Source of the DNA: Mycobacterium saskatchewanense
GTDB lineage: Bacteria; Actinomycetota; Actinomycetes; Mycobacteriales; Mycobacteriaceae
Assembly (NCBI RefSeq): GCF_010729105.1
Contig: NZ_AP022573.1
Location: forward strand, 2,418,001-2,482,000
Direction: 5' to 3'
DNA: 64,000 nucleotides
Part shown: piece after piece, positions 26,289 to 57,658 of the stretch
How the letters are laid out: each line of letters starts with the position of its first letter
How positions within the stretch are numbered: the first letter of the stretch is position 1
Translations under genes and position numbers: made by a program
The notes under the pieces: generated by a model
Seen by the model: the letters and a program-made list of their open reading frames with translations, nothing else
Told to the model about the DNA's origin: nothing
Database searches by the model: none

Positions 26289-26302
26289 GAAGACCGGTCT
26301 TC
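26289..26302. promoter_or_regulatory. 14-bp palindrome upstream of fbp
   Basis: GAAGACCGGTCTTC is a perfect 14-bp inverted repeat ending 45 bp before the fbp ATG, where a repressor or activator dimer could act on the fbp-prk operon. It does not resemble the palindromes upstream of cbbL. Role inferred only from position and symmetry. Confidence 0.4.
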
Positions 26303-26347
26303 CGAACGCCCGTCGGCCTCGTGCCGCCCCGCCAAAGGTATCTGCGC

Positions 26348-27421
26348 ATGCTCACCAACCGCACCACGCTGGTCAAATTCCTGATCGAGGAACGCCGGCG
26401 CCACCCCGACGCGAGCGGCGAACTCAACTCGCTGATCCTCGATGTCGCCCTTGCCTGCAAGGCCATTTCGACCCGGGTGGCGCAGGGAGAACTGGGCGGT
26501 GTTCTGGGCGCAGCCGACGCGGTGAACGTGCAAGGCGAAGTGCAGCAGAAACTGGACGTGCTGGCCAACGATTACTTCCTGCGCGCAACCGAGTGGGGCG
26601 GCCAGGTATCGGGAATGGCCTCGGAAGAACTCGCCGAGCCCTACCTGCTGCCGACGCAGTATCCCCGCGGCAAATACCTGCTCGTCTTCGATCCGCTCGA
26701 CGGATCGTCGAACATTGACGTCAACGTCTCTGTGGGGAGCATCTTTTCGATCCTGCGCGCATCCGATCCCGGCGGCGACCCGGCGCCCGGGGACTTTTTG
26801 CAGCCCGGCTCGCGGCAGGTGTGCGCCGGGTACGCGATCTACGGCCCGTCGACCATGCTCGTGCTCACGGTCGGCACGGGCGTGCACGCCTTCACGTTGG
26901 ATCCCACACTCGGGGAGTTCGTTCTGACCCGACAGGCGATCCAAATCCCCGTCTCCACCACCGAATTCGCCATCAACGCCTCGAACAGGCGGTTCTGGGA
27001 GCCCGCGGTTCAGCGCTACATCGACGAGTGCCTGGCGGGCCGGACCGGGCCGCGGGGCAAGGACTTCAACATGCGGTGGGTCGCGTCACTGGTCGCCGAG
27101 ACGCACCGAATTCTCAGCCGCGGCGGTGTGTTCCTGTATCCGCGGGATGACAAGGACCCCGACAAGCCGGGGCGCCTTCGGCTGCTGTATGAAGCCAGCC
27201 CGATCGGGTTCCTCGTCGAACAGGCAGGCGGCGCGGCCAGCACCGGCCGCGGCCGCCTGCTGGATGTCGTCCCGACGAGCCTGCATCAACGTGTGCCCCT
27301 GATCTTCGGGGCGGCCGACGAGGTCGAGCTGATCGAGGATTACCACCGCAAGGACTATGTAAGGCCCTCCACGTCACCGCTGTACGGCGTCCGCGGCCTG
27401 TACCGCAGTGGAGTCGGCTGA
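26348..27421 (+). CDS. Class I fructose-1,6-bisphosphatase
   Basis: A 357-residue class I FBPase that removes the C1 phosphate from fructose 1,6-bisphosphate and may also act on sedoheptulose 1,7-bisphosphate in the Calvin cycle. The metal-binding signature [11 protein letters not shown] is at 114-124, with SEEL upstream as the other metal site; the sugar-phosphate end is [14 protein letters not shown]. Mycobacteria normally use the unrelated class II GlpX enzyme, so a class I copy is a mark of the autotrophic set. ATG at 26348 has AAAGG nearby; a GTG nine codons upstream is an alternative. prk follows after 32 bp. Confidence 0.93.
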
Positions 27422-27453
27422 CCCGATCACCCGATCGTATTTGGAGGGAACAC

Positions 27454-28341
27454 ATGTCGCGCCTGCACCCCATCATTTCGGTCACCGGCTCCTCCGGGGC
27501 GGGAACGACCTCCGTCATGCGGACCTTCGACCAGATATTCCGCCGCGAGGGCATCGACGTCGCGTTCGTCGAAGGGGACAGCTTTCACCGATACGACCGC
27601 GTCGCCATGAAGGCGGCGATCGCTGACGCCCGTGCGCGCGGCGACCACTCCTTCAGCCACTTCGGTCCGGAGGCCAATCTTTTCGACGAGCTACAGCAGC
27701 TCTTTCAGACCTACGGCGAGACCGGCACCGGCAAGGTCCGGCGTTACCTGCACGACGAGAAGGAGGCCGAGCCCTTCGGCCAGGAGCCGGGTACCTTCAC
27801 GCCGTGGGAGGAGATTCCGGAGGACACCGACATGCTGTTCTATGAGGGACTACACGGCGCCATCGTCACCGATGAGGTCGACGTCGCGGCGCATGCCGAC
27901 CTGCGGATCGGCGTGGTCCCGGTGATCAACCTCGAATGGATTCAGAAGTTGCACCGCGACAAGGTGTCGCGCGGGTACTCCTCCGAGGCAGTCACCGACA
28001 CCATTCTGCGCCGCATGCCCGACTACGTGAATTACATGTGCACTCAGTTCTCGCATACCGACGTCAATTTCCAGCGAGTGCCTGTAGTCGACACCTCCAA
28101 CCCGTTCATCGCCCGGTCCATACCCACCGCCGACGAGTCGATGCTGATCATCCGGTTCCGCGACCCGCACGGCATCGATTTCCCGTATCTGCTTGCGATG
28201 CTTCATGACTCGTTCATGTCTCGTGCGAACACAATCGTGTGCCCGGGCGGCAAGATGGATCTGGCCATGCAGCTGATCTTCACGCCGATGGTACTGCGCC
28301 TGCTGGAGCTGCGCAAAGCACAGCTGGCCGCGGCGCGTTAG
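27454..28341 (+). CDS. Phosphoribulokinase
   Basis: A 295-residue class I (proteobacterial-type) phosphoribulokinase, which makes ribulose 1,5-bisphosphate, the CO2 acceptor. The ATP-binding loop is GSSGAGTT (12-19). VEGDSFHRYDR supplies the catalytic Asp and the sugar-binding His/Arg, and FYEGLHGAIV the Walker B-like strand. It lacks the long redox-regulated form of plants and cyanobacteria. ATG 27454 follows GGAGGG. Its stop overlaps by 4 bp the stop of the convergent nuoM-like gene. With RuBisCO this is a diagnostic Calvin-cycle enzyme. Confidence 0.95.
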   Translation: MSRLHPIISVTGSSGAGTTSVMRTFDQIFRREGIDVAFVEGDSFHRYDRVAMKAAIADARARGDHSFSHFGPEANLFDELQQLFQTYGETGTGKVRRYLHDEKEAEPFGQEPGTFTPWEEIPEDTDMLFYEGLHGAIVTDEVDVAAHADLRIGVVPVINLEWIQKLHRDKVSRGYSSEAVTDTILRRMPDYVNYMCTQFSHTDVNFQRVPVVDTSNPFIARSIPTADESMLIIRFRDPHGIDFPYLLAMLHDSFMSRANTIVCPGGKMDLAMQLIFTPMVLRLLELRKAQLAAAR

Positions 28342-29837
28342 CCGCGCCTGGGTGGCGGCACCGGCTCGGCCAGCGCGGTGTGCCCGATCGCCGGATTGAT
28401 CACGTCCAGTGCGGGTTGGGGATAGCAGCCCAGGACGACGAGCAACGCCAGCAGCGGTGCGACCGCGGCCAGTTCACGGGGCCGCAGGTCGCCGACCGGT
28501 GCGTCGCCCTCGCTCCGGGGCCCGGTCATCAACCGCTGGTAGAGCCACAGGATGCAGATGGCCGAGAGGACGAGCGCGGATCCGGCGAAGATCGCGAACA
28601 CCGGATACCTGCCGAACGTGCCGACCAGCACGAGGAATTCGCTGACGAAGGGCGCCAGTCCGGGGAGGGCCAGCGACGCCATGCCGGCGATCAGGAACGT
28701 TCCGGCAAGCACGGGAGCGACTTGCTGCACGCCGCCGTAGTCCGCGATGAGCCGGGTGCCCCTGCGCGAGACCAAAAAGCCGGCGATGAGCAACAGCGCG
28801 GCGGTCGCCACGCCGTGGTTGACCATGTACAGCGTCGCACCGGACTGGCCCTGCTCGGTCATCGCGAAAATGCCGAGGACGATGAACCCGAAATGGCTGA
28901 TCGATGTGTAGGCGATCACGCGCATGATGTCGCTCTGCCCGATCGCCACCAGGGCTCCGTAGCCGATCGCTACGACCGACAGGGCGATGACGAACGGCCG
29001 GAACAGGATTGCGCTCCCGGGGAAGAGTTGTAGGCAGTATCGCAGCATGCCAAACGTGCCGATCTTGTCGACGACGGCCATCATCAGCACCGCCGTCACC
29101 GGTGTGGCCTCGACGGCCAGCCCCGGTAACCACGTGTGCAGCGGCCACAGCGGTGCCTTGACGGCGAAGGCAAACATGAAGCCAAGGAACAGCAGGTGCA
29201 TGACCGCGGGAGTCGGGGCTATCGCACCCGAGGACACCGCGGCCACGATGGCGCGGAAATCGAAAGTCCCCGCGGCTGCCCGGTTGAGGAAGATCAACGC
29301 GGCCAGCATCAGCAGGCCGCCAAACAGGCTGTACAGCAAGAACTTCAGTGCGGCCCGAGGCGCGCCGGCCCCCCCGTACCGGCCGACGAGGAAGAACATG
29401 GGGATCAGCATCGCTTCGAAGGACACAAAGAAGAGCAGGAGGTCCAGCGCAACCAGCGAGACGAGCATCGTCGACTCGGCGACCAGCATCAGCGCCACAT
29501 AGCCGTGCGGCCGCTCGGCGTCGTTCCACCCGGCCGTCAGCAGCAGCGGCATCAACCCCGAGGTCAGCACCACGAGCACCATCGCGACACCATCGACACC
29601 GACGACATACCCTGCACCGAAAGTCGGTAACCATGAGTGGCTTTCCACGAACTGGTAACCCGGTCGATTCGGTTCGAAGCGCACGACGAGCACCCCGGCG
29701 ATCACCACGCCGGCCAACGAGACACCGACGGCCGTGTATTTCGCTGCGACCGGCCTGCCCCCCGGCACCGCCAGGACCACGAAGGCTCCCACCAGGGGCG
29801 CCAGCCACAACACGCTCAACAACGGCAACTGGGTCAT
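28338..29837 (-). CDS. NADH dehydrogenase subunit M-like proton pump subunit
   Basis: A 499-residue polytopic protein of the complex I/Mrp antiporter family with about 14 helices. The conserved VSFEAMLIPMFFLVGRYG (Glu of helix 5) and VKAPLWPLHTWLPG (Lys of helix 7) are intact, as is the DIMRVIAYTSISHFGFI region. It starts at ATG 29837, one base overlapping the stop of the nuoL-like gene (TGATG). A full complex I is absent here: there are no hydrophilic subunits and no nuoN. A partner in reverse electron flow, or ion coupling linked to hydrogenase, is speculative. Confidence 0.9.
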   Translation of the reverse strand: MTQLPLLSVLWLAPLVGAFVVLAVPGGRPVAAKYTAVGVSLAGVVIAGVLVVRFEPNRPGYQFVESHSWLPTFGAGYVVGVDGVAMVLVVLTSGLMPLLLTAGWNDAERPHGYVALMLVAESTMLVSLVALDLLLFFVSFEAMLIPMFFLVGRYGGAGAPRAALKFLLYSLFGGLLMLAALIFLNRAAAGTFDFRAIVAAVSSGAIAPTPAVMHLLFLGFMFAFAVKAPLWPLHTWLPGLAVEATPVTAVLMMAVVDKIGTFGMLRYCLQLFPGSAILFRPFVIALSVVAIGYGALVAIGQSDIMRVIAYTSISHFGFIVLGIFAMTEQGQSGATLYMVNHGVATAALLLIAGFLVSRRGTRLIADYGGVQQVAPVLAGTFLIAGMASLALPGLAPFVSEFLVLVGTFGRYPVFAIFAGSALVLSAICILWLYQRLMTGPRSEGDAPVGDLRPRELAAVAPLLALLVVLGCYPQPALDVINPAIGHTALAEPVPPPRRG

Positions 29838-31723
29838 CAGAGCCTTCCCACGACAAGACTGCACAACAAACCGGTGGCACCGAAGAGGATCGCCAGCGCG
29901 TACGAGCGCGCGAAGCCGGTCTGGATCCTGCTGATCTTCGCCGAGCCGGCGCCGACCAACCGGGCGATGCCTTCGACCGCGGCATCGATCAGCCGGCGAT
30001 CCACGTCGGCGAGCCTCCGCGACAGGCGCCGGCCAGGACGCATGAACACCGCCTCGTTCAGGCTGTCCCCGAACAGGTCCCGACGGGCGGCGATCACCCA
30101 TACCGACACCCATTCCGAGGCAACGGTTTTCACCGGTCGAGTCCCATGGCTGCGATAGCCGATCGCGGCTCCGAACACGACCACGGCCAAGGTGGCGGCA
30201 ATGAGCGCCCAGGCGGGCCCGGCGGGGTGCTGCTCGGCCGACCGTGGATCGGTCACCGGCTGCAGCCAACGCTGCAGGGTGCCGCCGATCGCGAGGGCGG
30301 CTCCGCCGCCCACCGACCCGCACGCCAGCACGATCATGGGCACCGTCATGACGAGGGGCGATTCGTGGGGGTGAAGACCCGGGTTCCAGCGCGGTTTGCC
30401 GAAGAATGTCATGACCATGACGCGGGTCATGTAAAACGCCGTGATCCCGGCCCCGAGGATTGCCACGCCGCCCAGGACCGCGCCGCCGACGCGGCCGGCG
30501 GCGAAGGCGGTCTCGATGATCGCGTCCTTGGAGAAGAACCCGGCCAGGGGCGGCATGCCGATGATGGCCAGATAGCCCAGCCCGAAGGTGGCAAAGGTCA
30601 CCGGCATCGCCCTGCGCAGCCCGCCATAGCGGCGCATGTCGGTCTCGTCGTCCATGCCGTGCATCACCGACCCGGCGCCCAGAAAAAGTCCGGCTTTGAA
30701 GAAGCCGTGGGTGAGCAGGTGCATGATCGCCACCGCGTAGCCTGCCGGTCCCAGACCCGCCGCCAGCACCATATAGCCGATCTGCGACATGGTCGAGGCT
30801 GCCAGGGCCTTCTTGATGTCGTCCTTGGCGCAGCCGATAATCGCCCCGAACAACAGGGTTACCGCGCCGACGACCGCCACCGCCGTCCGCGCGACGGGCG
30901 CCGCGTCGAACACGGGACCCGAGCGCACGATCAAGTACACGCCGGCGGTGACCATCGTGGCGGCGTGGATCAACGCACTGACCGGTGTCGGCCCCTCCAT
31001 CGCGTCGCCGAGCCATGACTGCAGGGGAACCTGTGCGGATTTGCCGCAGGCCGCCAGCAGCAGCATCAGCCCGATGACGGTGAGCGCAGGCTGTGCCGCC
31101 GGTGACGCCTTGGCGAATACGCCTGCGTAGGAAAGGGTCCCGAGGTGGGCGAACATCATCATCAGGGCTAGCGCCAGCCCCACATCACCGACTCGGTTGA
31201 CGACGAACGCTTTCTTGGCCGCCGTCGCCGCGGCCGGTTTGTGCGACCAGAACCCGATGAGTAGATAGGACGCCAAACCTACGCCCTCCCAACCGAAGTA
31301 CAGCCCGAGGTAATTGTCGGCCAGCACCAGCAGCAGCATCGCCGCGACGAACAGGTTCAGGTAGCCGAAGAAGCGTCGCCGCGCCGGGTCGCCGCGCAGG
31401 TAGCCGATCGAATACAGGTGGATCAACGCCCCGACGCCGGTGATCAGCAGCACGAAGCACACGCTCAGTGCATCCAGTTGCAGCCCGAACTCGACGTCCA
31501 GCGCGGCAACCTTCACCCAGGAGAACCATGTCTCGTGCAGCACCCGATCGGGCGCCGCCCGATGCAGCAGGCCGGTGAAAAGCGCCAGCCCGCAACCGAA
31601 TGACATCAGCACACTCGCACACCCGAGCACATGGCCCCACGAGTCAGCGCGCCTGCCGCCGAGCAGTAAGATCGCCGCCCCGGTCAAGGGCAGCGCAATG
31701 AGCGGCCACAGCACCGGTGCCAT
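29837..31723 (-). CDS. NADH dehydrogenase subunit L-like proton pump subunit
   Basis: A 628-residue polytopic protein. [18 protein letters not shown] has the Glu of helix 5, and [39 protein letters not shown] is the typical NuoL core (given here as landmarks). The distal lateral helix region at 560-628 is present, unlike in many short Mrp relatives, so it looks like a true NuoL rather than DabB. ATG at 31723 lies 3 bp after the decayed nuoK frame. The gene is intact and coupled to the nuoM-like gene. Chromosomal complex I probably exists elsewhere, so this pair may be a second set. Confidence 0.9.
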
Positions 31724-31726
31724 CCC

Positions 31727-31948: not shown

Positions 31949-32794
31949 TCAGCGTCGCCGCGTGCCCACGCCCCTCAGACCCGGGTCGAAGGTCGCCCGG
32001 GCCGACACCGACGTGGCGGCCGCCGCCACCACGACGGCGGCACCCTCCTCGTGTCCTTTGGGAAAGACGATTTCGGCGCTGTCGGGCCCGTCGCGATGGG
32101 CCATCAGCCAGTCGTAGAGCAACCAGTCGACGGCACAGGCGACGGCAAGTGGGTCGGCATCGGGGCTGCGGGACGCGGCGATCACCGAACCGAGCGCATC
32201 CAGGTGTTCCCGGCGCGCGCCGTCCTTGTTCACCCCCGAGCTGTCGAACATCAACATCGACAGGGTGAGTGGGAATCGTTGTCCCGCTTCGGTGCGAACA
32301 ACCCACCGGCCGCCCAGCCAGGGTCGTGCCGGATCCACCTGCCGCATCTCCCCGAAGCCGCCCACCACCCCGATCCCGGGTTCGTCGAGTTGGCCGTCGA
32401 ACGGTGCCGGCCCCAGCAGGCCGAGCGGCTGCCGGGCCCGGATCGAGAACAAGGCGGCCGTCCCGATGATCTTGCCGGCGCGCAGGTCCGGTTCTACCCC
32501 AGCAGATTCGGACGCCTGCGCGTACTCGAGGCACAACCGATCCAGGGTGCGGTGCAGCTCGAGCAGATCGTCGCGTTCGGTCGCGTCCGCGGGTCCCCTT
32601 CCCCCGCCGAGCATTTCGCCAAAACGCTCGGCGGCGATGATCAACGCGTCATCGAGCGCCTCCAGGTGGGTGGCCACCAGCCGATCGGGCTCGTCGTCCG
32701 CCGCCGCCAATTGCGCAAGCGAGGTCGGTGCGCCGGCCGCTGTGGTCCAATAAAACCCGACCTGGCCGTCGACCTGGACGATGCGCGGCCTCAC
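31949..32794 (-). CDS. Hydrogenase-operon protein of unknown function
   Basis: A 281-residue protein with no family I recognise. It is rich in helices, and contains two features: residues about 70-100 (FGEMLGGGRGPADATERDDL), and a segment FDSSGVNKDGARREHLDALG. GTG at 32794 overlaps the stop of the NHL gene (GTGA), so it is the ninth and last gene of the hydrogenase operon. No signal peptide, metal motif or membrane helix is seen. Its C-terminal stop abuts the nuoK remnant, and a deletion may have removed sequence just downstream. A role in Huc assembly or electron transfer is guessed from context. Confidence 0.75.
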   Translation of the reverse strand: MRPRIVQVDGQVGFYWTTAAGAPTSLAQLAAADDEPDRLVATHLEALDDALIIAAERFGEMLGGGRGPADATERDDLLELHRTLDRLCLEYAQASESAGVEPDLRAGKIIGTAALFSIRARQPLGLLGPAPFDGQLDEPGIGVVGGFGEMRQVDPARPWLGGRWVVRTEAGQRFPLTLSMLMFDSSGVNKDGARREHLDALGSVIAASRSPDADPLAVACAVDWLLYDWLMAHRDGPDSAEIVFPKGHEEGAAVVVAAAATSVSARATFDPGLRGVGTRRR

Positions 32795-33969
32795 CGGCGC
32801 CGCCAGATCACGACCCGGTTGTTCCCCGAGTCCGCAACCGCCAAGCGGTCCCCGCACAGCGAAAGCCCGTACGGCCAGCACAGGGTGTCGCGCTGCACCG
32901 ACGACCAGCGGTTTTCGCCGTTGGCCCCGAAGTGCGGCTGCGCCAGCACGTAGTCGGCAGGGCGGCCATCGGTGGGAACTCCGTCCCACAACAGAATTCG
33001 GTTGTTGGCGGTGTCCGCCACCGCCAGTCGTTCTCCGGCGAGACCGACCGCATAGGGGAACCGAAACCGGTCACCCGTGTGCGGACCGTACGGCCATTCC
33101 TGCGCACTGGCGAAATCCGGCTGTCCCGCCAGCACGTCGGCCGGAGCGTCGGAGCCGGGCGGGGGCGACCACCCCAGGATCCGGTGGTTGCCCGCGTCGG
33201 CAACCAGCAACAGATCTTCCCGTCCGGCGATGTCGTGCGGCCAGCGGAAGCTGGCCGGGCCGGGTTCCCCCGCCCGGTTTTCCTCCCGGTGAGAGGCGTC
33301 GGGTTGGCCGAGCACGACGTCAGCGGGCCGGCCCGGATCGGGAATCCCGCCCCGCCAGCCGAGAACGCGACGATTGCCGGTGTCGGCGACCCAAAAAATG
33401 CCGCCGACAATCGCGATCCCGAAGGGCCAGTAAAAGGACGCCGCGCAGCATTCGCCGCCCCCGTTGGGCTCCACCGAGGACGCGTCGGGTTGCCCCAACA
33501 CGACATCCGGGGCGACGTCGGTGCACGCGGGAAACTCGTCCCAGACCAGGATGCGGTGATGCCACGCGTCGGCGACGACGAGCCGGCCGTCGTGCACGAG
33601 GACGCCGGTGGGCAGGTTCATGCCGCGTTCGGGCCCGCGGCCGCCGGCCGCGCGGCCCTCGGTCGACCCGTCCGGCTGGCCCAGCACGACGTCGGCCGGC
33701 TGCTCGTCGACCTGGGGGACGCCGTGCCACAACAACACTCGATGGTTCCCAGAGTCGGCGACCACCAGATGCTGATCGTCGAGGTATACCCCGCGCGGCG
33801 AATACATCCACGCCATGGTGGGTTCCGCCGCGGGAAGAGCCAGTCCGCCGGGGGCGGGTGCGCCCAGCCACACGTCGGGCGACCAGCCACCGGTGAGATC
33901 GAGATCGGGCACGGCCTCGACCCGCCGGGGTGGCGCAGTGACGTTGTGCCGGACCGTGTAGCGGCTCAT
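32791..33969 (-). CDS. NHL-repeat beta-propeller protein of the hydrogenase operon
   Basis: A 392-residue protein made of about six NHL repeats, each with a core like LVVADSGNHRVLLW or RLAVADTANNRILLWDGVP, preceded by PADVVLGQPD-type linkers. This forms a propeller used for protein or ligand binding. No signal peptide is evident. The ATG at 33969 overlaps the stop of the NifU-Rieske gene (ATGA). Proteins of this kind are found with group 2a hydrogenases. It may scaffold the Rieske partner or the hydrogenase. Function not shown. Confidence 0.85.
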   Translation of the reverse strand: MSRYTVRHNVTAPPRRVEAVPDLDLTGGWSPDVWLGAPAPGGLALPAAEPTMAWMYSPRGVYLDDQHLVVADSGNHRVLLWHGVPQVDEQPADVVLGQPDGSTEGRAAGGRGPERGMNLPTGVLVHDGRLVVADAWHHRILVWDEFPACTDVAPDVVLGQPDASSVEPNGGGECCAASFYWPFGIAIVGGIFWVADTGNRRVLGWRGGIPDPGRPADVVLGQPDASHREENRAGEPGPASFRWPHDIAGREDLLLVADAGNHRILGWSPPPGSDAPADVLAGQPDFASAQEWPYGPHTGDRFRFPYAVGLAGERLAVADTANNRILLWDGVPTDGRPADYVLAQPHFGANGENRWSSVQRDTLCWPYGLSLCGDRLAVADSGNNRVVIWRRR

Positions 33970-34841
33970 CCGCGCACTCGGACCCAAACGTCTCCGTCGT
34001 CCACGCGCAGTGGCAATTGCTCGAGTTGCGCGCCGGGTGCGCTCAGGCATTCACCCGAGGACGCGTCGTAGCAGAAACCGTGCCAGGGGCAGGTGAGCGT
34101 CCCGCTGTCGGCGTCGAGGACGGCGTTGTCCAATGGCATTGCCTCGTGGGCGCATTCGTTGCGGTAGGCGGACAGCCGATGGTCGACACTCACAAGGATC
34201 ACGTCGGCATGCTCGCCCGAATCTGCCGTCAGGCTGCGCACCGTCACGTCGCCGTCGGCCAGCCCGGAGGCCGGCCCGACCATGGCCCACCCGTCGCGCG
34301 CCGTGGCCGACCCGATGCGCAGGGCCTCGATCGGAATCAGCGTCGGCGACGGCTCGTTCGGCAGCACTTCGACCGCGCCGATCGCCGGCACGCCCTCGAC
34401 CAGCGCCTGCTCGACAAGGTTCCGCAGAGTCGCCGAGGACATCGAACATCCGTTGCAAGCTCCTTCGAGCCGCACGTACGCGGTGCCGTCCTCGACCCGG
34501 ACGAGGGTGACATCGCCCCCATGACTTTGCAACTGGGGCCGCACGGAGGCCAGCACCCGGTTGGCGTGGGTGACGGGGTCGGGCCGGATGATCTCGTGCA
34601 GGGAAAGCAACAGGTGCACCACCGGGTCGTCCACCAGCTCGAACAAGACCGCACGGGCGGCGTCGTCCGCGCGCATGCGGCGCACCATGGTCACCAGCCC
34701 GGCACGATGCACGGCCTCGAGTGCCGCCTTGAGCTCCTCGGCCACGGCCCGGGCCTTCGGGTCGAGGTCGGCCAGCGCCGCGACGGCGTCGTCAACCCGC
34801 TTGGCCAGTTCTTCGAGCCCGGGCTCGGATATCACGGTCAT
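33966..34841 (-). CDS. NifU C-terminal domain fused to Rieske [2Fe-2S] domain
   Basis: A 291-residue protein with three parts. Residues 1-90 are a helical lead with a Glu/Ala-rich coil. Residues about 95-165 are a NifU-type scaffold domain with the cluster motif GACNGCSMSSATL (CxxC). Residues about 190-290 are a Rieske domain with CAHEAMPL (CxH) and CPWHGFCYD (CxxH). So it can hold one transferable Fe-S cluster and one [2Fe-2S] redox cluster. ATG at 34841 overlaps the TPR gene stop. It could insert clusters into HucS or pass electrons from it; which is open. Confidence 0.9.
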   Translation of the reverse strand: MTVISEPGLEELAKRVDDAVAALADLDPKARAVAEELKAALEAVHRAGLVTMVRRMRADDAARAVLFELVDDPVVHLLLSLHEIIRPDPVTHANRVLASVRPQLQSHGGDVTLVRVEDGTAYVRLEGACNGCSMSSATLRNLVEQALVEGVPAIGAVEVLPNEPSPTLIPIEALRIGSATARDGWAMVGPASGLADGDVTVRSLTADSGEHADVILVSVDHRLSAYRNECAHEAMPLDNAVLDADSGTLTCPWHGFCYDASSGECLSAPGAQLEQLPLRVDDGDVWVRVRG

Positions 34842-44126: not shown

Positions 44127-45630
<1,504 letters not shown>

Positions 45631-45733
45631 GCATTGCGGTTACCCCGCGGATCCACCTTGCGGGTGAGGCCGACGCGTCCGCGCCGCCCATACCGTGTGC
45701 GCACTCGCAAACACGAACCGGAGGGACCCACAC

Positions 45734-48623: not shown

Positions 48624-48686
48624 GCGAACACGATAATGGCGATGCCGTACGCAGTCATCTCGTTTCATCGATCATGGGCGTCCCCC

Positions 48687-48768: not shown

Positions 48769-49452
48769 GTGACCCCACTATTGGTCGCGTCGGTGCTGCC
48801 GGCCGACTTCGCCGAACTAGGTCGCGACGTCGCGGAGATCGAGCGGGCCGGCGTCGACCGCATCCAGTGGGATGTCATGGACGGCAAGTTCGTCCCCAAC
48901 CTCACCTTCGGTCCCGACGTGATCGCGGCCTGCCGCGACCGGGTCGCGATCGGCTTCGAGGCCCACCTGATGGTCGAAGATCCCGACGCCATGTTGCCGC
49001 GGTGGGTCGATGCGGGTTGTGAGGTGGTGATCGTGCACGCCGAGGCGTGTCGACACCTACACCGCACCCTGTCGAGCATCCGGGACCTCGGCGCCCGCGC
49101 CGGTGTGGCGCTCAACCCGGCTACCCCGCTGGCCGCGGTCCTCGACGTCCTGGACCTCACCGACCTGCTGCTCATCATGACGGTCAACCCGGGATTCGGC
49201 GGCCAGCGCTACCTGGCCGGCATGGAACCGAAGATAGCGGCGGCCCGAGCCGAAATCGACCGTCGCGCAATGCCTGTCGAGCTCGAGGTGGACGGCGGCA
49301 TCGGGCCCGAGACCATCACCGGTGCCGCGGCGGCCGGGGCCGACGTGTTCTGCGCCGGTTCGGCTCTGTTCGCCGGGCCGAGCATGACCGACCGCGCGAA
49401 CGCACTGCGCGCGGCCGCCCGCGAGACCAACGAAAGGCTGGTGCCACAGTGA
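48769..49452 (+). CDS. rpe: Ribulose-phosphate 3-epimerase
   Basis: A 227-residue TIM barrel interconverting ribulose and xylulose 5-phosphates. QWDVMDGKFVPNLTFGP holds the metal Asp and His-equivalent region, FEAHLMVEDP the second His, TVNPGFGGQ the phosphate loop and EVDGGIGPET the catalytic Asp. GTG at 48769 with GGAAGG upstream. Its stop overlaps the transketolase GTG (GTGA-type), so both are made together. Mycobacteria have a housekeeping rpe elsewhere; this copy sits with the cbb genes and presumably serves the cycle. Confidence 0.93.
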   Translation: MTPLLVASVLPADFAELGRDVAEIERAGVDRIQWDVMDGKFVPNLTFGPDVIAACRDRVAIGFEAHLMVEDPDAMLPRWVDAGCEVVIVHAEACRHLHRTLSSIRDLGARAGVALNPATPLAAVLDVLDLTDLLLIMTVNPGFGGQRYLAGMEPKIAAARAEIDRRAMPVELEVDGGIGPETITGAAAAGADVFCAGSALFAGPSMTDRANALRAAARETNERLVPQ

Positions 49453-51536
49453 GCGTCGCACCCAGAACGACGACCGGCCCCAACGCGGACCTGTCGTCCT
49501 CGGCAGGCCCGCCCGCCCGCACCGACGAACTGGACCGGCTCGCCATCAATACATTGCGGTTCCTTGCCGCCGACGGCGTCGAGGCCGCCAACAGCGGACA
49601 TCCCGGCCTGCCACTGGGCACCAGCGCGATCGCGTGGACGTTGTGGTCGCGCCACCTGCGCCACGACCCGGCGGACCCGCGCTGGCCGGACCGCGACCGC
49701 TTCGTGTTGTCCGCCGGCCACGGGTCGATGCTGCTGTATGGGCTGCTTCACCTCTTCGGCTACGACCTACCGCTCGGCCAACTGCGCAGATTCCGCCAAC
49801 TCGGTTCCCTGACCCCCGGGCACCCCGAGTACGGTCACACGCCGGGCGTCGAAACCACCACCGGCCCTCTGGGGCAAGGGATTGCGAACGCCGTCGGGAT
49901 GGCCCTGGCCGAGGAGCTGCTCGCCGCCAGGTGCAACACCGACGAACACACCGTGGTCGACCACCGCACCTGGGTGCTCGCCGGCGACGGCGACCTGATG
50001 GAGGGCATCAGCCACGAGGCCGCATCGCTCGCCGGGCGGCTGCGGCTGGGCAAGCTGATCGTCGTCTTCGACGACAACGACATCACCATCGACGGGCCCG
50101 CCTCACAAAGCTGCGCCGACGACGTCGAGGGCCGGTTCGCTGCCTACGGCTGGCGGGTGCTCAGTGTCGACGACGGCAACGATGTGCCTGCCCTGGACGG
50201 GGCGTTCACCGAGGCCGTCAGCGGGGACGGCAGGCCCACCTTCATCAGGGTGAAGACCACCATCGGCTTTGGCGCGCCCGGTGTCGAAGGAACCCCGCGC
50301 GCACACGGCAGCCCGCTGGGTGCCGAGGTGCTCGCTGCCATGCGCGCACGCCTGGACTGGCCCGACGAGCAGTTCCACGTGCCACTCGCCGTCCGGGCGA
50401 CGGCGGCAGTGGTGGCGGCGAGGGGCGCCGTGGCGCACACCCGATGGGCCCGGACGCACGCCGCGTGGCAGGTCGACCATCCGCAGCTGTCGGCTGACTT
50501 TCCGCTCGACACCATTCCCGAGTGCGACGACCCGTCGGTGCTGACGCCCCTGGCCGACGGCCTGGCTCCGGGCGGAAAGTCGGCTACCCGCAAGGCATCT
50601 GGGTCGGCTCTGACAGCGCTCGCCGCCGTCTATCCGGGGTTGGTGGGCGGGTCGGCCGACCTGGCGGCCTCGACCAACACCACGATTCCGGGCGGCGACG
50701 TCGGGCCGGGTGACTTCGGCGGACGGAATATTCACTTCGGAATCCGCGAGCACGCGATGGCGGCCGTCATGAACGGCATCGCCGTGCACGGAGGGTTAAG
50801 GCCGTTCGGTAGCACCTTCTTGGTGTTCGCCGATTACCTGCGGCCGGCCCTGCGTCTTTCGGCGCTGATGAGATTGCCCGTGGTGTATGTGTTCACGCAC
50901 GACTCGGTGCACGTCGGCGAGGATGGCCCCACGCATCAGCCGATCGAACAGCTGGAGTCGTTGCGCCTGATTCCGGGCCTCACCGTGTTGCGCCCGGCCG
51001 ACGCCGCGGAGACCGCGCTGGCCTGGCAACTGGCCGCCCTCAACACCGACGGGCCGACGGCCTTGGTGCTGAGCCGACAGGACCTGCCGACACTCGGCGG
51101 TGCCGGATTGGACGACACCCGCCACTACGGCATGCGGGTCGTGCGGCCGGTCACGGGCGCCGCTCAGGTGGTGCTGGCGGCCAGCGGCTCGGAGGTCGCG
51201 CTCGCCCTCGAAGCGGCCGATTTGCTTGAGCAGCATGGGATATCGTCGATCGTGATCTCCGTGATGTGGCGCGAACGCATCGCGGCCGCGCTCGACGCCG
51301 ACGACACCGAGCTGCCCGACCTGCCGGTCGTGTGGATCGAGGCGGGGGTGACCACCGGCTGGCGGGCAATCGCCAGGCCCTGGGACGCGGTGATCGGCGT
51401 CGAGCGTTTCGGTGAGAGCGGGCCGGGCCGCGAGGTGGCCGCGCACCTGGGTCTGACGGCGGCGGCGGTCGCCGCGGCGGCGTTGCGCAGTATCGCGCCG
51501 GCATCGAAGGTGATCGACGGCGCCGCGCGCAGTTGA
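49449..51536 (+). CDS. tkt: Transketolase
   Basis: A 695-residue thiamine diphosphate enzyme that moves two-carbon units in the regenerative part of the Calvin cycle. The ThDP motif GDGDLMEGISHEA and the later FDDNDITIDG are in the PP domain. SAGHGSMLLYGLLH is near 90. The Pyr domain has FGIREHAMAAVMNGIA with the catalytic Glu, and VFTHDSVHVGEDGPTHQP. GTG at 49449 overlaps the rpe stop; the long frame upstream is the antiphase of rpe. Complete length for the family. Convergent with hypE, 38 bp apart. Confidence 0.94.
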   Translation: MSVAPRTTTGPNADLSSSAGPPARTDELDRLAINTLRFLAADGVEAANSGHPGLPLGTSAIAWTLWSRHLRHDPADPRWPDRDRFVLSAGHGSMLLYGLLHLFGYDLPLGQLRRFRQLGSLTPGHPEYGHTPGVETTTGPLGQGIANAVGMALAEELLAARCNTDEHTVVDHRTWVLAGDGDLMEGISHEAASLAGRLRLGKLIVVFDDNDITIDGPASQSCADDVEGRFAAYGWRVLSVDDGNDVPALDGAFTEAVSGDGRPTFIRVKTTIGFGAPGVEGTPRAHGSPLGAEVLAAMRARLDWPDEQFHVPLAVRATAAVVAARGAVAHTRWARTHAAWQVDHPQLSADFPLDTIPECDDPSVLTPLADGLAPGGKSATRKASGSALTALAAVYPGLVGGSADLAASTNTTIPGGDVGPGDFGGRNIHFGIREHAMAAVMNGIAVHGGLRPFGSTFLVFADYLRPALRLSALMRLPVVYVFTHDSVHVGEDGPTHQPIEQLESLRLIPGLTVLRPADAAETALAWQLAALNTDGPTALVLSRQDLPTLGGAGLDDTRHYGMRVVRPVTGAAQVVLAASGSEVALALEAADLLEQHGISSIVISVMWRERIAAALDADDTELPDLPVVWIEAGVTTGWRAIARPWDAVIGVERFGESGPGREVAAHLGLTAAAVAAAALRSIAPASKVIDGAARS

Positions 51537-51574: not shown

Positions 51575-52634
51575 TCAGCAGATGCGCGGAAGTTGTTCGC
51601 CGAGTTGACGTTCGATGACGTGCGCGGTTCCGAACGGTGTCTTTCCGACGACCATGCCGGGATGCTCGGCCACCACTCGACCGATGATCGCGGCATTCGT
51701 TCCCTCGGGCCGTGACCGCATCGCGTCGAGCACCGCCTCGCTGCGCCCGGGGTCGACGAATGCCACAATCTTGCCCTCGTTGGCCACCTGGAGCGGATCC
51801 AACCCCAGAAACGAGCATGCCGAGGAAACCGTCTCGGGGATAGGAATTCTCGCCTCCTCGAGCTCGACGCCGACCGAGGCGGCGCGCGCGATCTCGGCAA
51901 CGGATGCGACGAGCCCGCCCCGGGTGGGGTCCCGCAGCGCATGCACCGCGGGGCCGCCGGCGGCGAGCATGGCGCCGACCAGCCGGTGCAGCGGTGCGCT
52001 GTCACTGGTGACCACGGTGCCGAAGTCGATGCCCTCGCGCAGACTCATGACCGCCACGCCGTGTTCGCCGAGATTGCCCGACACGACGATGTGGTCGCCC
52101 GGCCGTGCGCGCTCCGGGCCGATGTGCACACCGGCGGGTACCACGCCGACCCCGGCGGTGTTGATGAAGAGCTGGTCCGCACCGCCTTTCGCCACGACTT
52201 TGGTGTCGCCGGTGACGACGGCGACGCCGGCGTTCGCGGCCGCCTTACCCATGGTCTCGGCGATCGCGCCGAGCACGTCTAATTCGAGCCCCTCTTCGAG
52301 GATGAACCCGGCCGTCAGCGCGAGCGGTTGGGCGCCACTGCATGCCAGGTCGTTGATGGTGCCGTTGACCGCCAGGTCGCCGATGTTGCCGCCGGGAAAG
52401 AACAACGGCTGCACCACGTAGGAATCGGTGGTCAGTGCGACACGCCCGCCGGTGATGTCGAGCAGTGCCGAATCGCGGGCGGGCCCGGCAGGCGCGCCGA
52501 GCGCGGGGAGGAAGAGGTTCTCGATGAGCTCTTCTGACAGGACGCCGCCGCCGCCATGGCCCAGCACGACCCGTTTCGTGTCGCGCAGCGGCAGCGGGCA
52601 CACCCAGTCGGCCGGGTCGATGCCGCTGGGTCGC

Positions 52635-52642
<8 letters not shown>
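51575..52642 (-). CDS. hypE: Hydrogenase maturation protein HypE
   Basis: A 355-residue PurM-like ATPase that dehydrates a C-terminal thiocarboxamide to thiocyanate, the source of the CN ligands. The C-terminal PRIC ends with the required Cys. [15 protein letters not shown] opens the fold, [17 protein letters not shown] is the ATP region and [17 protein letters not shown] the second. GTG at 52642 overlaps the hypD stop by eight bases; a TTG five codons upstream is an alternative. Operon order is hypF-hypC-hypD-hypE. The enzyme needs HypF, encoded upstream in the same operon. Confidence 0.94.
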
Positions 52643-53734
<1,092 letters not shown>

Positions 53735-53738
<4 letters not shown>

Positions 53739-54010
53739 GCCGGCTCCCTGCTGCCCTGGCCCTCGTCACCGGCCAGTTCCTCGTCCAGCACGCCCAGCTC
53801 GTGGAACATCCGCAGGGTTTCGTTCGCCGATGCTTCGTCGAGCCGAGTGATGGCGAATCCCGCGTGGACGATCGTGTACTCCCCGACTTGCATGTCCGGA
53901 AGGTAGGCGAGGCATACGGTCTTGGTGGTACCGCCGAAATCGGCGGTGCACATTCGTGTGCCCGCCTCATCCCACGTGTCGACTATCCTGCCGGGAATTC
54001 CGAGACACAT
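53735..54010 (-). CDS. hypC: Hydrogenase maturation chaperone HypC
   Basis: A 91-residue HypC/HupF chaperone. It starts [10 protein letters not shown]: Cys2 carries the Fe(CN)2CO unit to the large subunit and binds Hyp[24 protein letters not shown] and [11 protein letters not shown] follow as expected. ATG at 54010 is inside the last 28 bp of hypF, so the genes overlap. Slightly longer than the E. coli protein at the C-terminus ([16 protein letters not shown]), an acidic tail seen in some actinobacteria. Confidence 0.95.
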
Positions 54011-56301
54011 CCGGCGTCTCCTCTCTCGTGAAGCTTCTGGCGCATCCGCGCCGCGATGACGGCCTGACCGAGCGCCAGGCCGCCGTCGTTGCACGGCAAC
54101 ACTCCATGGGTCAGCACTTCGAAACCGTTGCCGGTCAACTCTTTGCGAAGACCGTCGAGCAGCAGCCGGTTGACGAAGACGCCCCCCGTCAGCCCGATGG
54201 TTCCGATGCCAACCGCCGCCTGACGGACCGCCCGCGCCGTGGCTCTCACGACGGCGTCGTGGAAGCCCGCCGCCAAATTCTCTTGCGCTGTGCCCGCCCG
54301 CAGGCCCCGCACCAGTTCGGTGATCAGCGGCGCCGGATCGAGCACCCCCTGGGCCACCTCGAAGTCCAGCGGCACGGCGCGACCGCGGCGCGCGAGGTGC
54401 TCGAGTTCCACGGCCGCCTGCCCCTCGTAGGTGACGGTGTGGCACACGTCGAGCAGGCTGGCGACCGCGTCGAAGAGGCGACCCATGCTGCTGGTGGTGA
54501 CGCATCCGATGCCGCGCGGTATCTGTTGGGCGAGGACCTGACGCGCCTGCTCGCCGAGGTGGCGGACCGCCGGAATGTCCCCCTCCCATTCGAGGCCGGC
54601 CCGGTGCAGCAGGTCGAGCGCGATCCGGCCGGGGTGGCGCACCGCACCCTCGCCGCCGGGCAGAGCGAACGGTTTCAGATGCCCGGCCCTGGTGAACGCC
54701 GCGGGGTCGGTCACCAGCAATAGCTCGCCGCCCCAGATGGTGCCGTCGGTGCCGTAGCCCGTGCCATCGAAGGCGACCGCAAGCATCGGGGTGCCGAGCC
54801 GTCCGTGTTCGGCCAGGAGCGACACCGCGTGCGCGTGATGGTGCTGCACCCGCATCACGGGCTGGCCGCGTCGGCGGGCCCAGCCGCTGGTGGCGTACGA
54901 AGGATGCAGGTCACACGCGACGGCGGCGGCATGGCGGTCGGTCATGAAAGCCAGGTGGTGCAGGGCGGATTCGAAGCTGGTCTGGGTGCGCGGGTCGGCC
55001 ATATCACCCAGGTGCGCGGACAGGTGGGCGTGGCCGTCGGTGCCCATCAGGCAAAACGTGGTCTTGAGGTCACCGCCGGTGGCCAGGATCACCTCACCGT
55101 CGCCGGTGTCGACCGATACCGGCAGGGGTGCGTAGCCCCGAGACCGTCGAATCGGCACCACGGCACCGTCGCGGTCGACGGTGACCACCGAATCTTCACA
55201 GGGCACATGGATGGGCCGGTCGTGGGTGAGCACCGCGTCAGCCAGGCCGTCGACCCAGGTCAGATCGGCATCGCGAAAGACGATGGGGGATCCGCCGCTG
55301 TTGGCGGAAGTCATGACCAGCGGCGTCGCGCCGAGTCTGTCGAACAGAAGATGGTGCGCGGGCGAATACGCCAGCATCACCCCGAACTCGGACAGACCGG
55401 GCGCCACGCCAGGCAGCGCCGCGTCGTCACGAGCGGGCACCAGGACGATCGGCGCAGCCGGTGACCGCAGTAGGTCTGCCGCAGCGGCATCGATGCGACC
55501 AATGCTCCGCGCCGCGGCAAGATCGGCAACCATCAACGCGAAAGGCTTGGCGGGGCGACACTTTCGGTCGCGAAGGGCTGCCACCGCCGTGGGGTTGTCG
55601 GCCCGGCAGGCCAGGTGGAACCCTCCGATGCCCTTCACCGCGACGATGAGACCGTCATCGAGGGCCCGAGCGGCGGCCGCGATCGGGTCGGCCCCGTCCC
55701 CGGGACCGTGCCAAGTCAACCTTGGCCCGCAGTCGGGGCAGGCGATGGTCTGCGCGTGGAACCGCCGATCGGTGGGATCGGCGTATTCGGCCGCGCACGA
55801 TGCGCACATCGGGAAGTGCGCCATGGTGGTCGATGGCCGGTCGTAGGGCAGGTCGGTGATCACCGTGTAGCGCGGGCCGCAGTTGGTGCAGGTGATGAAG
55901 GGATGGCCGTGCCGGCGATCGGCGGGATCACGGAGTTCGCGCAGACAGTCGGCGCAGACGGCGATGTCCGGCGGCACCAGGGTGCGACGGGCGTCGCCCG
56001 CCCGGCTGTCGACGATCCGGAACCCGGGCTCCCCGCTGGGCGGTAGCGGAATGGCCGCGATGGAGTCGATGCGGGCCATCGGCGGCCGGTCGGCGCTGAT
56101 CGCGGATATCGCGGCTTCGACCGCGTCCGGCGCACCCTCGAGTTCGCAATGCACCGACCCGGAGTCGTTGTAGACGCAGCCGGCCAGGCCGTGACGTGCG
56201 GCGATACGGGCGACTGCCGGACGAAATCCGACGCCTTGGACCACGCCCGCGATGTCGAGGCGCAGCCGCACGGTCGTCACCGCGTCATGCCGACTGCCCA
56301 C
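53983..56301 (-). CDS. hypF: Carbamoyltransferase HypF
   Basis: A 772-residue multi-domain enzyme that takes carbamoyl phosphate and loads HypE's Cys. The N-terminal acylphosphatase (VVQGVGFRPAVARIA) is followed by two zinc fingers, CADCLRELRDPADRRHGH..CTNCG and CASCAAEY..CPDCG. A YrdC domain (MTSANSGGSPIVF) and a Kae1-like carbamoyl transferase domain with VQHHHAHAVSLLAEHG and AFDGTGYGTDGTIWGGE complete the order. GTG at 56301 has AGGAGG six bases upstream. All domains present in the usual order. Confidence 0.95.
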   Translation of the reverse strand: MGSRHDAVTTVRLRLDIAGVVQGVGFRPAVARIAARHGLAGCVYNDSGSVHCELEGAPDAVEAAISAISADRPPMARIDSIAAIPLPPSGEPGFRIVDSRAGDARRTLVPPDIAVCADCLRELRDPADRRHGHPFITCTNCGPRYTVITDLPYDRPSTTMAHFPMCASCAAEYADPTDRRFHAQTIACPDCGPRLTWHGPGDGADPIAAAARALDDGLIVAVKGIGGFHLACRADNPTAVAALRDRKCRPAKPFALMVADLAAARSIGRIDAAAADLLRSPAAPIVLVPARDDAALPGVAPGLSEFGVMLAYSPAHHLLFDRLGATPLVMTSANSGGSPIVFRDADLTWVDGLADAVLTHDRPIHVPCEDSVVTVDRDGAVVPIRRSRGYAPLPVSVDTGDGEVILATGGDLKTTFCLMGTDGHAHLSAHLGDMADPRTQTSFESALHHLAFMTDRHAAAVACDLHPSYATSGWARRRGQPVMRVQHHHAHAVSLLAEHGRLGTPMLAVAFDGTGYGTDGTIWGGELLLVTDPAAFTRAGHLKPFALPGGEGAVRHPGRIALDLLHRAGLEWEGDIPAVRHLGEQARQVLAQQIPRGIGCVTTSSMGRLFDAVASLLDVCHTVTYEGQAAVELEHLARRGRAVPLDFEVAQGVLDPAPLITELVRGLRAGTAQENLAAGFHDAVVRATARAVRQAAVGIGTIGLTGGVFVNRLLLDGLRKELTGNGFEVLTHGVLPCNDGGLALGQAVIAARMRQKLHERGDAGCVSEFPAG

Positions 56302-56350: not shown

Positions 56351-56384
56351 CGCGGGCGGTCTCGCTCAGGCTAGACCGCCCGCG
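56351..56384. promoter_or_regulatory. Strong inverted repeat between divergent hypF and hypA
   Basis: CGCGGGCGGTCT (56351-56362) and AGACCGCCCGCG (56373-56384) are perfect 12-bp arms with a 10-bp loop, 50 bp upstream of hypF and about 95 bp upstream of hypA. Because the genes are divergent a terminator is not needed here. It could be an operator for both transcripts, or a leader hairpin for hypF. Confidence 0.45.
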
Positions 56385-56478
56385 ATGCGGCGACAATCAC
56401 AATTTCGCACACATATTCTGCGCTTTTCCACGCTCACGTTTCGTGACGCCGAAGTCGTTGGCGGTGCAGCATGGTGGG

Positions 56479-56820
56479 GTGCACGAGTTGTCGCTGTGCC
56501 ATGCCATTGCTGGTGTGGTGAAGCCCCATGCGGCCGGCCGTCACGTCGACGTCATCCATGTCCAGGTGGGCGCTCTGCGCCAGGTGGTGCCCGAGTCCCT
56601 GGAATTTTGCTGGGGGCTGGTCTGTCAGCACCTGGACGACAACATGACCGACACCAAGCTGGAACTCGATCTGGTACCCGCCGAGGTGATGTGCCGCGCC
56701 TGCGCCCGGCAGGCGCGGATCGAGTCCCGGTGGTCGGTGTGCTGCCCGGGATGCGACAGCGCGGACGTCCACGTGGTGCGCGGCAACGAGTTCCTAGTCA
56801 CCTCGGTCGAGGTGTCGTGA
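56479..56820 (+). CDS. hypA: Nickel insertion protein HypA
   Basis: A 113-residue nickel metallochaperone. It starts MHELSLCHAIAG with the Ni-binding His2 right after Met. The zinc motif is CRACARQARIE plus CCPGCDS, two CxxC pairs about 14 residues apart. GTG 56479 is fixed by the conserved MHELS beginning; a longer reading frame upstream is antisense to hypF and not used. hypB starts 31 bp later. HypA pairs with HypB to deliver nickel to HucL after HypCDEF have placed the iron unit. Confidence 0.94.
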   Translation: MHELSLCHAIAGVVKPHAAGRHVDVIHVQVGALRQVVPESLEFCWGLVCQHLDDNMTDTKLELDLVPAEVMCRACARQARIESRWSVCCPGCDSADVHVVRGNEFLVTSVEVS

Positions 56821-56851
56821 CTTCTCCGCAGTCCGCGAAAGGTCGAGTTTG

Positions 56852-57658
56852 ATGGGCAGATTCCACCGCCACGACGACGGCACGGTACACGAGCACGATC
56901 TCGACGACGAGGGCCACGGCCACGGGCACGGTGACCACAGCGGGTACACCACGGGTCCACAGCGCGTCGAGGTGCTGGAGTCGATTTTCGCCGAGAACGA
57001 CCTGCGCGCGGGCATCAACCGGCTTGCGTTCGAAAGCAACGGCATCCGCGCCCTGAACCTGATGAGCTCGCCGGGATCCGGCAAAACGACGATCCTGGCC
57101 GCCACCCTGGACGAGCTTGCGGGCGAACTGGCGATCGGAGTCGTCGAAGGCGACATCGCCACCGATCTCGATGCGGTCAAGCTGCACGGCCGGGGCGCGC
57201 AGGTGGCACTGTTGAACACCGGCAACGGGTTCGGCGGCGAGTGCCACCTGGACGCCCCGATGGTCAATCGGGCGCTACAGGACCTCGAGCTGCCGGAACT
57301 GGACATGGTGATCATCGAGAACGTCGGGAACCTGGTATGCCCCGCCGAGTTCGACGTCGGGGAGCACGCCAAGGTAATGGTGTATTCGGTCACCGAGGGT
57401 GAAGACAAACCGCTGAAATACCCGGTGATGTTCCGCTCGGTCGACCTCGTGCTGCTCAACAAGGTCGACCTGGTCCCCTACCTCGATGCCGACGTCGACC
57501 GATACATCGAGCAGGTCCGCAAGATCAATCCGGCCGCGACGGTGTTCCCCGTCAGCGCCCGCACCGGCGACGGCATGTCCGACTGGTTCGACTGGTTGCG
57601 ACAGTTCGCCGGTTCGGGCTCCGGCGCCGCGCCCCTCGTCCGCGACACCTCCGGGTAA
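56852..57658 (+). CDS. hypB: Nickel-binding GTPase HypB
   Basis: A 268-residue SIMIBI GTPase that drives nickel insertion. A His-rich stretch at 5-29 (HRHDDGTVHEHDLDDEGHGH with further His) may store nickel. The P-loop is MSSPGSGKTT (about 71-80), with VEGDIATDLDA and IENVGNLVCPAEFDVGEH as switch and metal-binding regions; Cys and His there bind zinc or nickel. NKVDLVPY is the guanine-specificity motif. ATG at 56852; a TTG one codon before is unlikely. It closes the island. Confidence 0.95.
   Translation: MGRFHRHDDGTVHEHDLDDEGHGHGHGDHSGYTTGPQRVEVLESIFAENDLRAGINRLAFESNGIRALNLMSSPGSGKTTILAATLDELAGELAIGVVEGDIATDLDAVKLHGRGAQVALLNTGNGFGGECHLDAPMVNRALQDLELPELDMVIIENVGNLVCPAEFDVGEHAKVMVYSVTEGEDKPLKYPVMFRSVDLVLLNKVDLVPYLDADVDRYIEQVRKINPAATVFPVSARTGDGMSDWFDWLRQFAGSGSGAAPLVRDTSG

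Follow-up and report, generated by a model that had tools for sequence, protein, structure and literature searches.

Gene content of the block

The 64,000-nt window of DNA analysed here comes from the genome of Mycobacterium saskatchewanense (G000; one contig, 6.0 Mb) and holds a block of about 31 kb with genes for a Huc-type [NiFe] hydrogenase and its maturation, for most of a Calvin cycle, and for a second pair of the complex I subunits NuoL and NuoM. On balance we favour the reading that this block is a lithoautotrophy supercluster, which combines H2 oxidation, the Calvin cycle and a NuoL-NuoM pair for reverse electron flow and which was relocated as a unit. The block proper was delimited at 26328-57658 because DNA homology with the blocks of relatives begins at 26328-26348 and stops at 57607-57618. 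Gene identities were assigned by Pfam and NCBIfam profile scans and, for HucL, HucS, HucM and the RuBisCO large subunit CbbL, also by matches to PDB sequences (Table 1). All gene kinds listed in the initial annotation of the window were recovered, including the six hyp genes: hypABCDEF were all found by profile, HypE being named from its AIRS-type family and its position next to HypD. That inventory was correct except for the labelling of the RuBisCO as form IC, and it had overlooked several genes: the class I aldolase, the epimerase, the transketolase, a CbbR-like LysR regulator, an AraC regulator, a GAF histidine kinase, a LuxR-type response regulator, HucM, HucE, and the NuoL-NuoM pair at 28338-31723. 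As far as profile matches tell, the block does hold genes for the H2-driven CO2 fixation that had been proposed (Huc, hyp, RuBisCO, phosphoribulokinase (PRK) and most cycle genes).

HucL aligned with Huc over its full length (515 residues) and keeps the N- and C-terminal Cys motifs; the Huc complex in PDB entries 7uus and 7uur is, we assume, the one from M. smegmatis. The large subunit motifs, the HucM subunit and a HucE with NifU-like and Rieske domains are all found in the block, and by these sequence features its hydrogenase is classed as Huc, group 2a. HucE of the Huc hydrogenase is described in PMC6883350. Elsewhere in the host genome, a weak hydrogenase-large-subunit-like stretch lies at 3117468-3123076 with two antiporter-like stretches adjoining, as in hydrogenase-4-like clusters. 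A second [NiFe] hydrogenase large subunit at 5752907-5754469 scored 1085 bits to 5aa5 (HofG), and we take it to be of the actinobacterial group 1h type. The Huc operon of M. smegmatis has the same HucL, HucS and HucM (7uus/7uur), HucE, maturation protease and hyp genes, but the block adds cbbR-X-S-L-fba between the AraC and kinase genes, plus fructose-1,6-bisphosphatase (FBPase), PRK, NuoM, NuoL, epimerase and transketolase.

Both Calvin-cycle-specific enzymes, RuBisCO and PRK, are present by profile match, and CbbL is under strong constraint, with a ratio of nonsynonymous to synonymous substitution rates (dN/dS) of 0.025-0.040 against relatives. In the CbbL tree the protein grouped with an actinobacterial red-type clade that includes Pseudonocardia and stands apart, with 100% support in the Shimodaira-Hasegawa approximate likelihood ratio test (SH-aLRT), from a mostly rhizobial clade, which is presumably form IC; form IC was therefore rejected. 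Actinobacterial RbcL has been named form IE (PMC12999727, PMC9561532), and the RuBisCO of the block is placed in this actinobacterial form IE clade by a tree that itself had no IE-labelled sequence. The order cbbL-cbbS-cbbX is shared with other Actinomycetota form IE clusters (Pseudonocardia, Actinomadura, Nocardia and other mycobacteria). Two Pseudonocardia have a CbbL 93% identical to that of the window, and their loci and one Actinomadura locus differ in that the 21 kb compared contain no Huc gene. In these two Pseudonocardia (L056, L057) transketolase, regulator, kinase, aldolase and cbbLSX stand in the window's relative order, with no epimerase match. M. gordonae CTRI 14-8773 (L052; CbbL 97%) has the same gene order over the 21 kb compared. 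Hydrogen-grown M. gordonae is said to have been reported in older work; our literature search found no paper on autotrophy in this species.

The genes cbbR-cbbX-cbbS-cbbL-fba occupy exactly the space from the AraC gene to the kinase gene in the Huc module. Among 14 RuBisCO-negative Huc clusters the kinase lay near AraC in eight, with a gap of 9-91 bp in seven and of 1033 bp in G262; no kinase was found near AraC in the other six, and hyp genes adjoin AraC in five of these. Judging from these arrangements, the Calvin operon would either have been set into the Huc module or have been cleanly cut out elsewhere. The 1033-bp gap of G262, a genome with no CbbL match, holds a diverged aldolase (L258, 1026-1733) with 49% identity, compared with 77% and 85% for the neighbouring genes. 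This aldolase is probably a remnant of Calvin genes that have been lost, so such loss seems to happen too. In five RuBisCO-positive genomes (G261, G277, G125, G039 and G251; L231, L233, L236, L237 and L241) a different hyp set lies within the Huc operon, flanked by the NHL gene and the gene without a family match; it consists of relatives of hypF, C, E and D, mostly about 40-60% identical to those of the window.

Table 1. Features of the block and its flanks, in positions of the window.
Feature	Position	Strand	Evidence
Left flank, beta-propeller gene	24518..25582	-	PF10282 lactonase-type propeller; adjoins DUF427 gene in relatives
Junction stretch	25583..26320		no clear relative at the empty sites and blocks compared, except about 55 bp
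Class I FBPase	26348..27421, open reading frame (ORF) from 26321	+	PF00316/PF18913; NF006779 516 bits, cut-off 349
PRK	27454..28341	+	NF011997 503.6 bits, cut-off 362
Second NuoM, complex I antiporter-like subunit M	28338..29837	-	NF004500 691.8 bits, cut-off 550
Second NuoL, complex I subunit L	29837..31723	-	NF005141 773.8 bits, cut-off 556; PDB 8e9g_L 913.9 bits
Protein without Pfam or NCBIfam match	31949..32794	-	with Huc operon by synteny; beside Huc in RuBisCO-negative genomes too
NHL-repeat protein of Huc operon	32791..34050	-	PF01436
HucE, NifU-like and Rieske domains	33966..34841	-	PF01106, PF00355
TPR-like protein of Huc operon	34838..36241	-	weak PF13424, under its cut-off; synteny
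Small conserved Huc-operon ORF, 91 aa	36094..36369	-	present in most relatives; not found by same search in G227, G110
Hydrogenase maturation protease	36366..37193	-	PF01750; TIGR00072 133 bits, cut-off 47
HucL, [NiFe] hydrogenase large subunit, group 2a	37217..38824	-	PDB 7uus_A 1101.5 bits; RICGIC and DSCLVC motifs
HucS, hydrogenase small subunit	38900..39871	-	PDB 7uur_D 731 bits
HucM, membrane-association subunit (DUF1641)	39908..40465	-	PDB 7uus_Q 146.6 bits; PF07849
AraC-type regulator of Huc module, start uncertain	40775..41782	+	PF14525, PF12833; beside Huc in RuBisCO-negative genomes too
LysR regulator, CbbR-like	41790..42692	-	best NCBIfam match CbbR NF045990 145 bits, below cut-off 450
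CbbX, RuBisCO activase	42689..43642	-	TIGR02880 486 bits, cut-off 459
RuBisCO small subunit (CbbS)	43639..44064	-	PF00101 127 bits
RuBisCO large subunit (CbbL), form IE clade	44127..45557	-	PF00016 455 bits; PDB match; tree
Class I fructose-bisphosphate aldolase	45695..46732	+	NF033379 440.7 bits, cut-off 250
GAF-domain histidine kinase	46720..47946	-	PF13185, PF07730, PF02518
LuxR-type response regulator	47943..48668	-	PF00072, PF00196
Ribulose-phosphate 3-epimerase	48769..49452	+	TIGR01163 239 bits, cut-off 213
Transketolase	about 49449..51536	+	TIGR00232 737.9 bits, cut-off 682
HypE	51575..52657	-	PF00586, PF02769 (AIRS family); place beside HypD
HypD	52635..53738	-	PF01924 498 bits
HypC	53735..54010	-	PF01455 82 bits
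HypF	53983..56301	-	PF22521, PF01300, PF07503, PF17788, PF00708
HypA	56479..56820	+	PF01155 83.8 bits
HypB	56852..57658	+	TIGR00073 263 bits, cut-off 121
Right flank, DUF427 gene	57689..58498	-	PF04248

Chromosomal site and the blocks of relatives

The beta-propeller and DUF427 genes that flank the block, which we take to be Rv1057-like and Rv1056-like, are 32 kb apart in the window. In the relatives for which this site was fetched (17 of the 297 genomes sampled, in sets of 5 and 12; eight of the 17 bear the block elsewhere) they were neighbours in 17 of 17, with 0.4-3.7 kb between aligned ends, as the initial annotation had stated for M. tuberculosis. Homology with these empty sites resumes at 57676-57726. 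Within the left junction stretch, about 55 bp (26231-26289) weakly resemble the region before FBPase. No direct or inverted repeats of at least 16 bp were found within 25500-26400, no integrase was present among the window proteins scanned, and no tRNA lies near the block (the window's only tRNA is at 63127). One direct repeat (D6; 20 nt, 85% fit), seen among the 20 largest of 49 direct-repeat families within 24400-58600, occurs in both flank genes (25364, 57767) and once inside the block, and may be due to chance in coding DNA rich in guanine and cytosine (GC). An evident integrative mobile element was rejected, as neither an integrase among the proteins scanned, nor a near tRNA, nor clear junction repeats were found. 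In some relatives (L147, L149, L150, L151, L156, L048, L049, L050, L051) the Rv1057/Rv1056 junction carries about 1.5-3.7 kb of other sequence, and it thus seems to tolerate insertions.

The gene order from FBPase to HypB is identical in seven relatives (G031, G006, G227, G202, G110, G234 and G173) and is kept in the parts fetched of G047 and G265, save that the 91-aa ORF was not found in G227 and G110. The flanks of the window align with none of the flanks of these nine blocks, and eight of the nine genomes were also shown to have an Rv1057/Rv1056-like site without the block. The blocks of G006, G227, G202 and G047 have about 9 kb in common on the right side; outer left-flank pieces are common to G110, G234 and G173, two of which (G173 and G234) have a further 1.1 kb of right flank in common. 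What G031 and G265 have in common with other blocks is limited to the adjoining genes, and these two were assigned to no site. Block-bearing slow growers further differ from the window in three genes that it lacks: a HAD-IIA phosphatase lies upstream of FBPase in nine of nine, about 0.1-2.6 kb before it; a NicT nickel permease stands beside the blocks of G031 (585 bits), G110, G234 and G265; and a glyceraldehyde-3-phosphate dehydrogenase (GAPDH) gene is near the block in G031 and G110. The nearest NCBIfam family of the phosphatase was HAD-IIA (127 bits, cut-off 100), and its score to the phosphoglycolate phosphatase family, 153.9 bits, was far under the cut-off of 475. Remnants of the GAPDH gene were seen before the phosphatase gene in G173 (only 81 aa of the gene end) and in G234 (39 aa), which looks like stepwise loss. 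The same order between other flanks in nine relatives argues that the block moved as a unit, and the homology limits together with the missing phosphatase suggest that it arrived whole, one of its ends lying near FBPase. On this comparative evidence we conclude that in the host lineage the whole block was relocated in one piece to the Rv1057/Rv1056 junction. The initial proposal, that the block was gained here or lost in relatives as a unit, thus holds for the discrete unit but simplifies too much as regards gain or loss at this site, since nine relatives carry it between other flanks.

Among the 297 genomes sampled for CbbL, HucL and NuoL, CbbL was matched in 42 (37 of them at 90% identity or more) and HucL in 83. 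All 37 genomes in the 90% class also had HucL, and 45 of the 83 HucL-positive genomes had no cbbL. The four RuBisCO-positive genomes without HucL (G139, G194, G252, G293) carry a CbbL type of 72-79% identity; this more distant mycobacterial type was also seen in M. aquaticum (L090). G281 had no closer matches than a RuBisCO-like protein at 34% and a hydrogenase at 38%. In the cbb-locus tree the window grouped with G110, G234, G031, G265 and G173 (96% SH-aLRT) among slow growers, growth classes being read here from trees and not from cultures; at this locus G006 stood near M. gordonae, and G043 was identical to M. vinylchloridicum.

A recent import of the block by horizontal transfer from another actinobacterium would agree with the rpoB data: only one of the 41 genomes scoring above G173 by rpoB, G265, was RuBisCO-positive (scores were absent for 21 of the 297 genomes), and on an rpoB tree of 61 hand-chosen rows (31 RuBisCO-positive and 30 negative) the trait needed 12 changes, and well-supported branches make 10 of them unavoidable. 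The place of the block among slow growers in the cbb-locus tree speaks against such an import, as do the lack of an integrase and of a near tRNA and a GC content close to, and slightly below, that of the surroundings. Distances at fourfold sites, measured over 18 block genes and two backbone genes (fadD14-like and DUF427), gave block/backbone ratios of 0.87-1.01 between the window and eight relatives, so that recent import into the host genome is not supported. Among other pairs the ratio was 0.68 for G265-G173, which is transfer-like, and 1.53 for G031-G234; some other blocks look as if they had moved between lineages. The backbone comparison rests on two genes, and rpoB is slower. The block/rpoB ratios of the host were lowest with G110, G031 and G234 (1.33-1.37), the other five relatives giving 1.46-1.62; the relatively greater closeness of the block to these three would suit some transfer. 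With these caveats we rejected recent import for lack of support and regard it as unlikely; an older transfer is possible. An old resident block that was relocated, with losses elsewhere, fits better than a recent foreign gain.

The NuoL-NuoM pair and its association with RuBisCO

Both NuoL and NuoM of the block scored above the NCBIfam complex I equivalog cut-offs. A NuoL profile search of the host genome yielded two NuoL over the cut-off and five weaker antiporter-like stretches, among them the block NuoM; the other NuoL lies at 5.36 Mb with two further antiporter-like matches beside it and was taken as the housekeeping set. NuoL was matched in 283 of the 297 genomes, with four candidates scored per genome. 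Two NuoL matches were found in 31 genomes, all 31 of which were RuBisCO-positive, and never among the 248 RuBisCO-negative genomes in which NuoL was matched (Fisher test, p = 2e-37, kinship not corrected for). Among the remaining RuBisCO-positive genomes, G083, G194, G252 and G281 had one match and G041, G043, G109, G139, G144, G176 and G293 had none. When all candidates were scored in 22 hand-chosen genomes, two NuoL were present in 16 of 16 RuBisCO-positive genomes and one in 6 of 6 negative genomes.

The dN/dS values were 0.16-0.21 for block NuoL and 0.16-0.19 for block NuoM, vs. 0.18-0.22 for housekeeping NuoL (partly from other partner genomes), and this likeness suggests that the pair is in use. 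Block NuoL keeps the charged pump residues E146, R177, D180, K228, K399 and D400, which were matched to the E. coli positions of ion pairs and channel residues in PMC13144422 by our own motif mapping. In fast growers the copy linked to the cluster, assigned by distance, stood in larger gene sets: that of G156 lies within a nuo operon beside the Huc cluster (C, D, F, G, H, J, L, M), and G251 has nuo G, L, M and N beside cbbL. Only L and M of the nuo genes were found in the slow-grower blocks, whose NuoL form one clade (100% SH-aLRT).

Proposed working of the block and alternatives

From the gene content we infer an electron path, reverse flow, an exchange of subunits and growth on H2/CO2. Huc would oxidise H2 and pass the electrons via HucM/HucE to menaquinone, the oxidases would build proton-motive force and ATP, and form IE RuBisCO with its activase CbbX, PRK, FBPase, aldolase, transketolase and epimerase would run the Calvin cycle. 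Huc feeds the respiratory chain at quinone (PMC6883350, PMC7784904). Because it reduces quinone and not NAD, NADH would have to come from complex I run backwards, and the need of the Calvin cycle for NAD(P)H would select for the linkage of another complex I, or of another L-M pair on the common core, to the genes of the cycle. Block NuoL-NuoM would most likely take the place of the housekeeping L and M in complex I during this reverse electron flow. The block itself would have moved to the Rv1057/Rv1056 junction without the phosphatase gene that precedes FBPase in relatives.

A wider proposal, drawn by analogy and put forward tentatively as a possibility, is that CO2-fixing mycobacteria build a second, autotrophy-specific complex I. 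This would be encoded by a second nuo operon in fast growers and be reduced in slow growers to NuoL2 and NuoM2, which would join a housekeeping core that keeps its own NuoN, much as NdhF/NdhD pairs do in cyanobacteria; being reversible, it would carry H2-derived electrons from menaquinone to NAD. Like the cyanobacterial NDH-1 with exchangeable NdhD/NdhF, the block has a second M-L pair tied to CO2 fixation, and no second N was found; it differs in that no Cup protein was noted in it and in that its NuoL scores as the respiratory type.

The main rival to reverse flow assigns NuoL-NuoM to a device for the uptake of inorganic carbon, of the same kind as DAB or the cyanobacterial NDH-1MS. The close linkage of the pair to RuBisCO would suit this, and cyanobacteria exchange NdhD/NdhF pairs in their NDH-1 complexes. 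The DAB pump likewise has a PF00361 membrane subunit near carbon-fixation genes, and its DabB2 is a relative of NuoL (PMC13144422; PDB 9rd0_B was among the NuoL matches). Yet no DabA-type (DUF2309) match was obtained among the block proteins scanned, block NuoL keeps the charged residues of the ion pairs that DabB2 is said to lack (PMC13144422, by our own mapping), it scored 283.5 to the ndhF3_CO2 family TIGR01960 with a cut-off of 588.7, and the linked genes of G156 include NuoC, D, F and G and not L-M alone. We therefore consider carbon uptake improbable, and more so than recent import. Somewhat less doubtful, though still rather unlikely in our estimate, is that the block serves mixotrophic survival, with H2 as an energy supplement and CO2 fixation as a redox outlet, and not autotrophic growth. 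Huc supports persistence in M. smegmatis (PMC6883350), more than half of the HucL-positive genomes have no cbbL, and autotrophic growth has been reported in species of only 3 of the 21 Actinomycetota genera with the genes (PMC12999727). Against mixotrophy stand the presence of most cycle genes in the block, the constraint on CbbL, and the report of mycobacterial putative hydrogen-oxidiser isolates from H2/CO2/O2 enrichments (PMC13413523).

Besides the two-gene backbone and the rpoB ratios, several observations weigh against a lithoautotrophy supercluster that was relocated as a unit and works by reverse flow. GAPDH, phosphoglycerate kinase, triose-phosphate isomerase and ribose-5-phosphate isomerase matched no block protein scanned, and the HAD-IIA phosphatase gene is nowhere in the window, the rest of the genome not having been searched for these genes. 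The AraC-kinase arrangement is found in only 8 of 14 RuBisCO-negative Huc clusters and so is not universal. G083 has RuBisCO (93%) yet one NuoL match, and G041, G043, G109, G144 and G176 (CbbL at least 90%) gave none, presumably due to the scoring of four candidates per genome; the same scoring misses copies, so that second copies in RuBisCO-negative genomes can stay hidden. A single specialised subunit would predict one clade of linked NuoL copies, but those of fast growers do not form one and several group with the other NuoL copy from the same genome, which makes repeated duplication or gene conversion likely.

Form IE RuBisCO together with hydrogenase in Mycobacteriales, and growth or enrichment of mycobacteria on H2/CO2, are in print (PMC12999727, PMC9561532, PMC13413523). 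Hydrogen autotrophy in the genus is thus already known, and the NuoLM association is the newer part: no RuBisCO-linked NuoL-NuoM pair in mycobacteria was found in a literature search by titles and abstract starts, with most subscription papers outside its reach. Since Huc feeds quinone, the source of NADH in an aerobic H2-oxidising autotroph dependent on Huc is a practical question, and a complex I pump pair that tracks RuBisCO this closely names two genes and one complex for study. The block is also an example of a complete lithoautotrophic capability, as predicted from its genes, that is carried and moved as a unit in a genus whose best-known members are mostly heterotrophs and pathogens.

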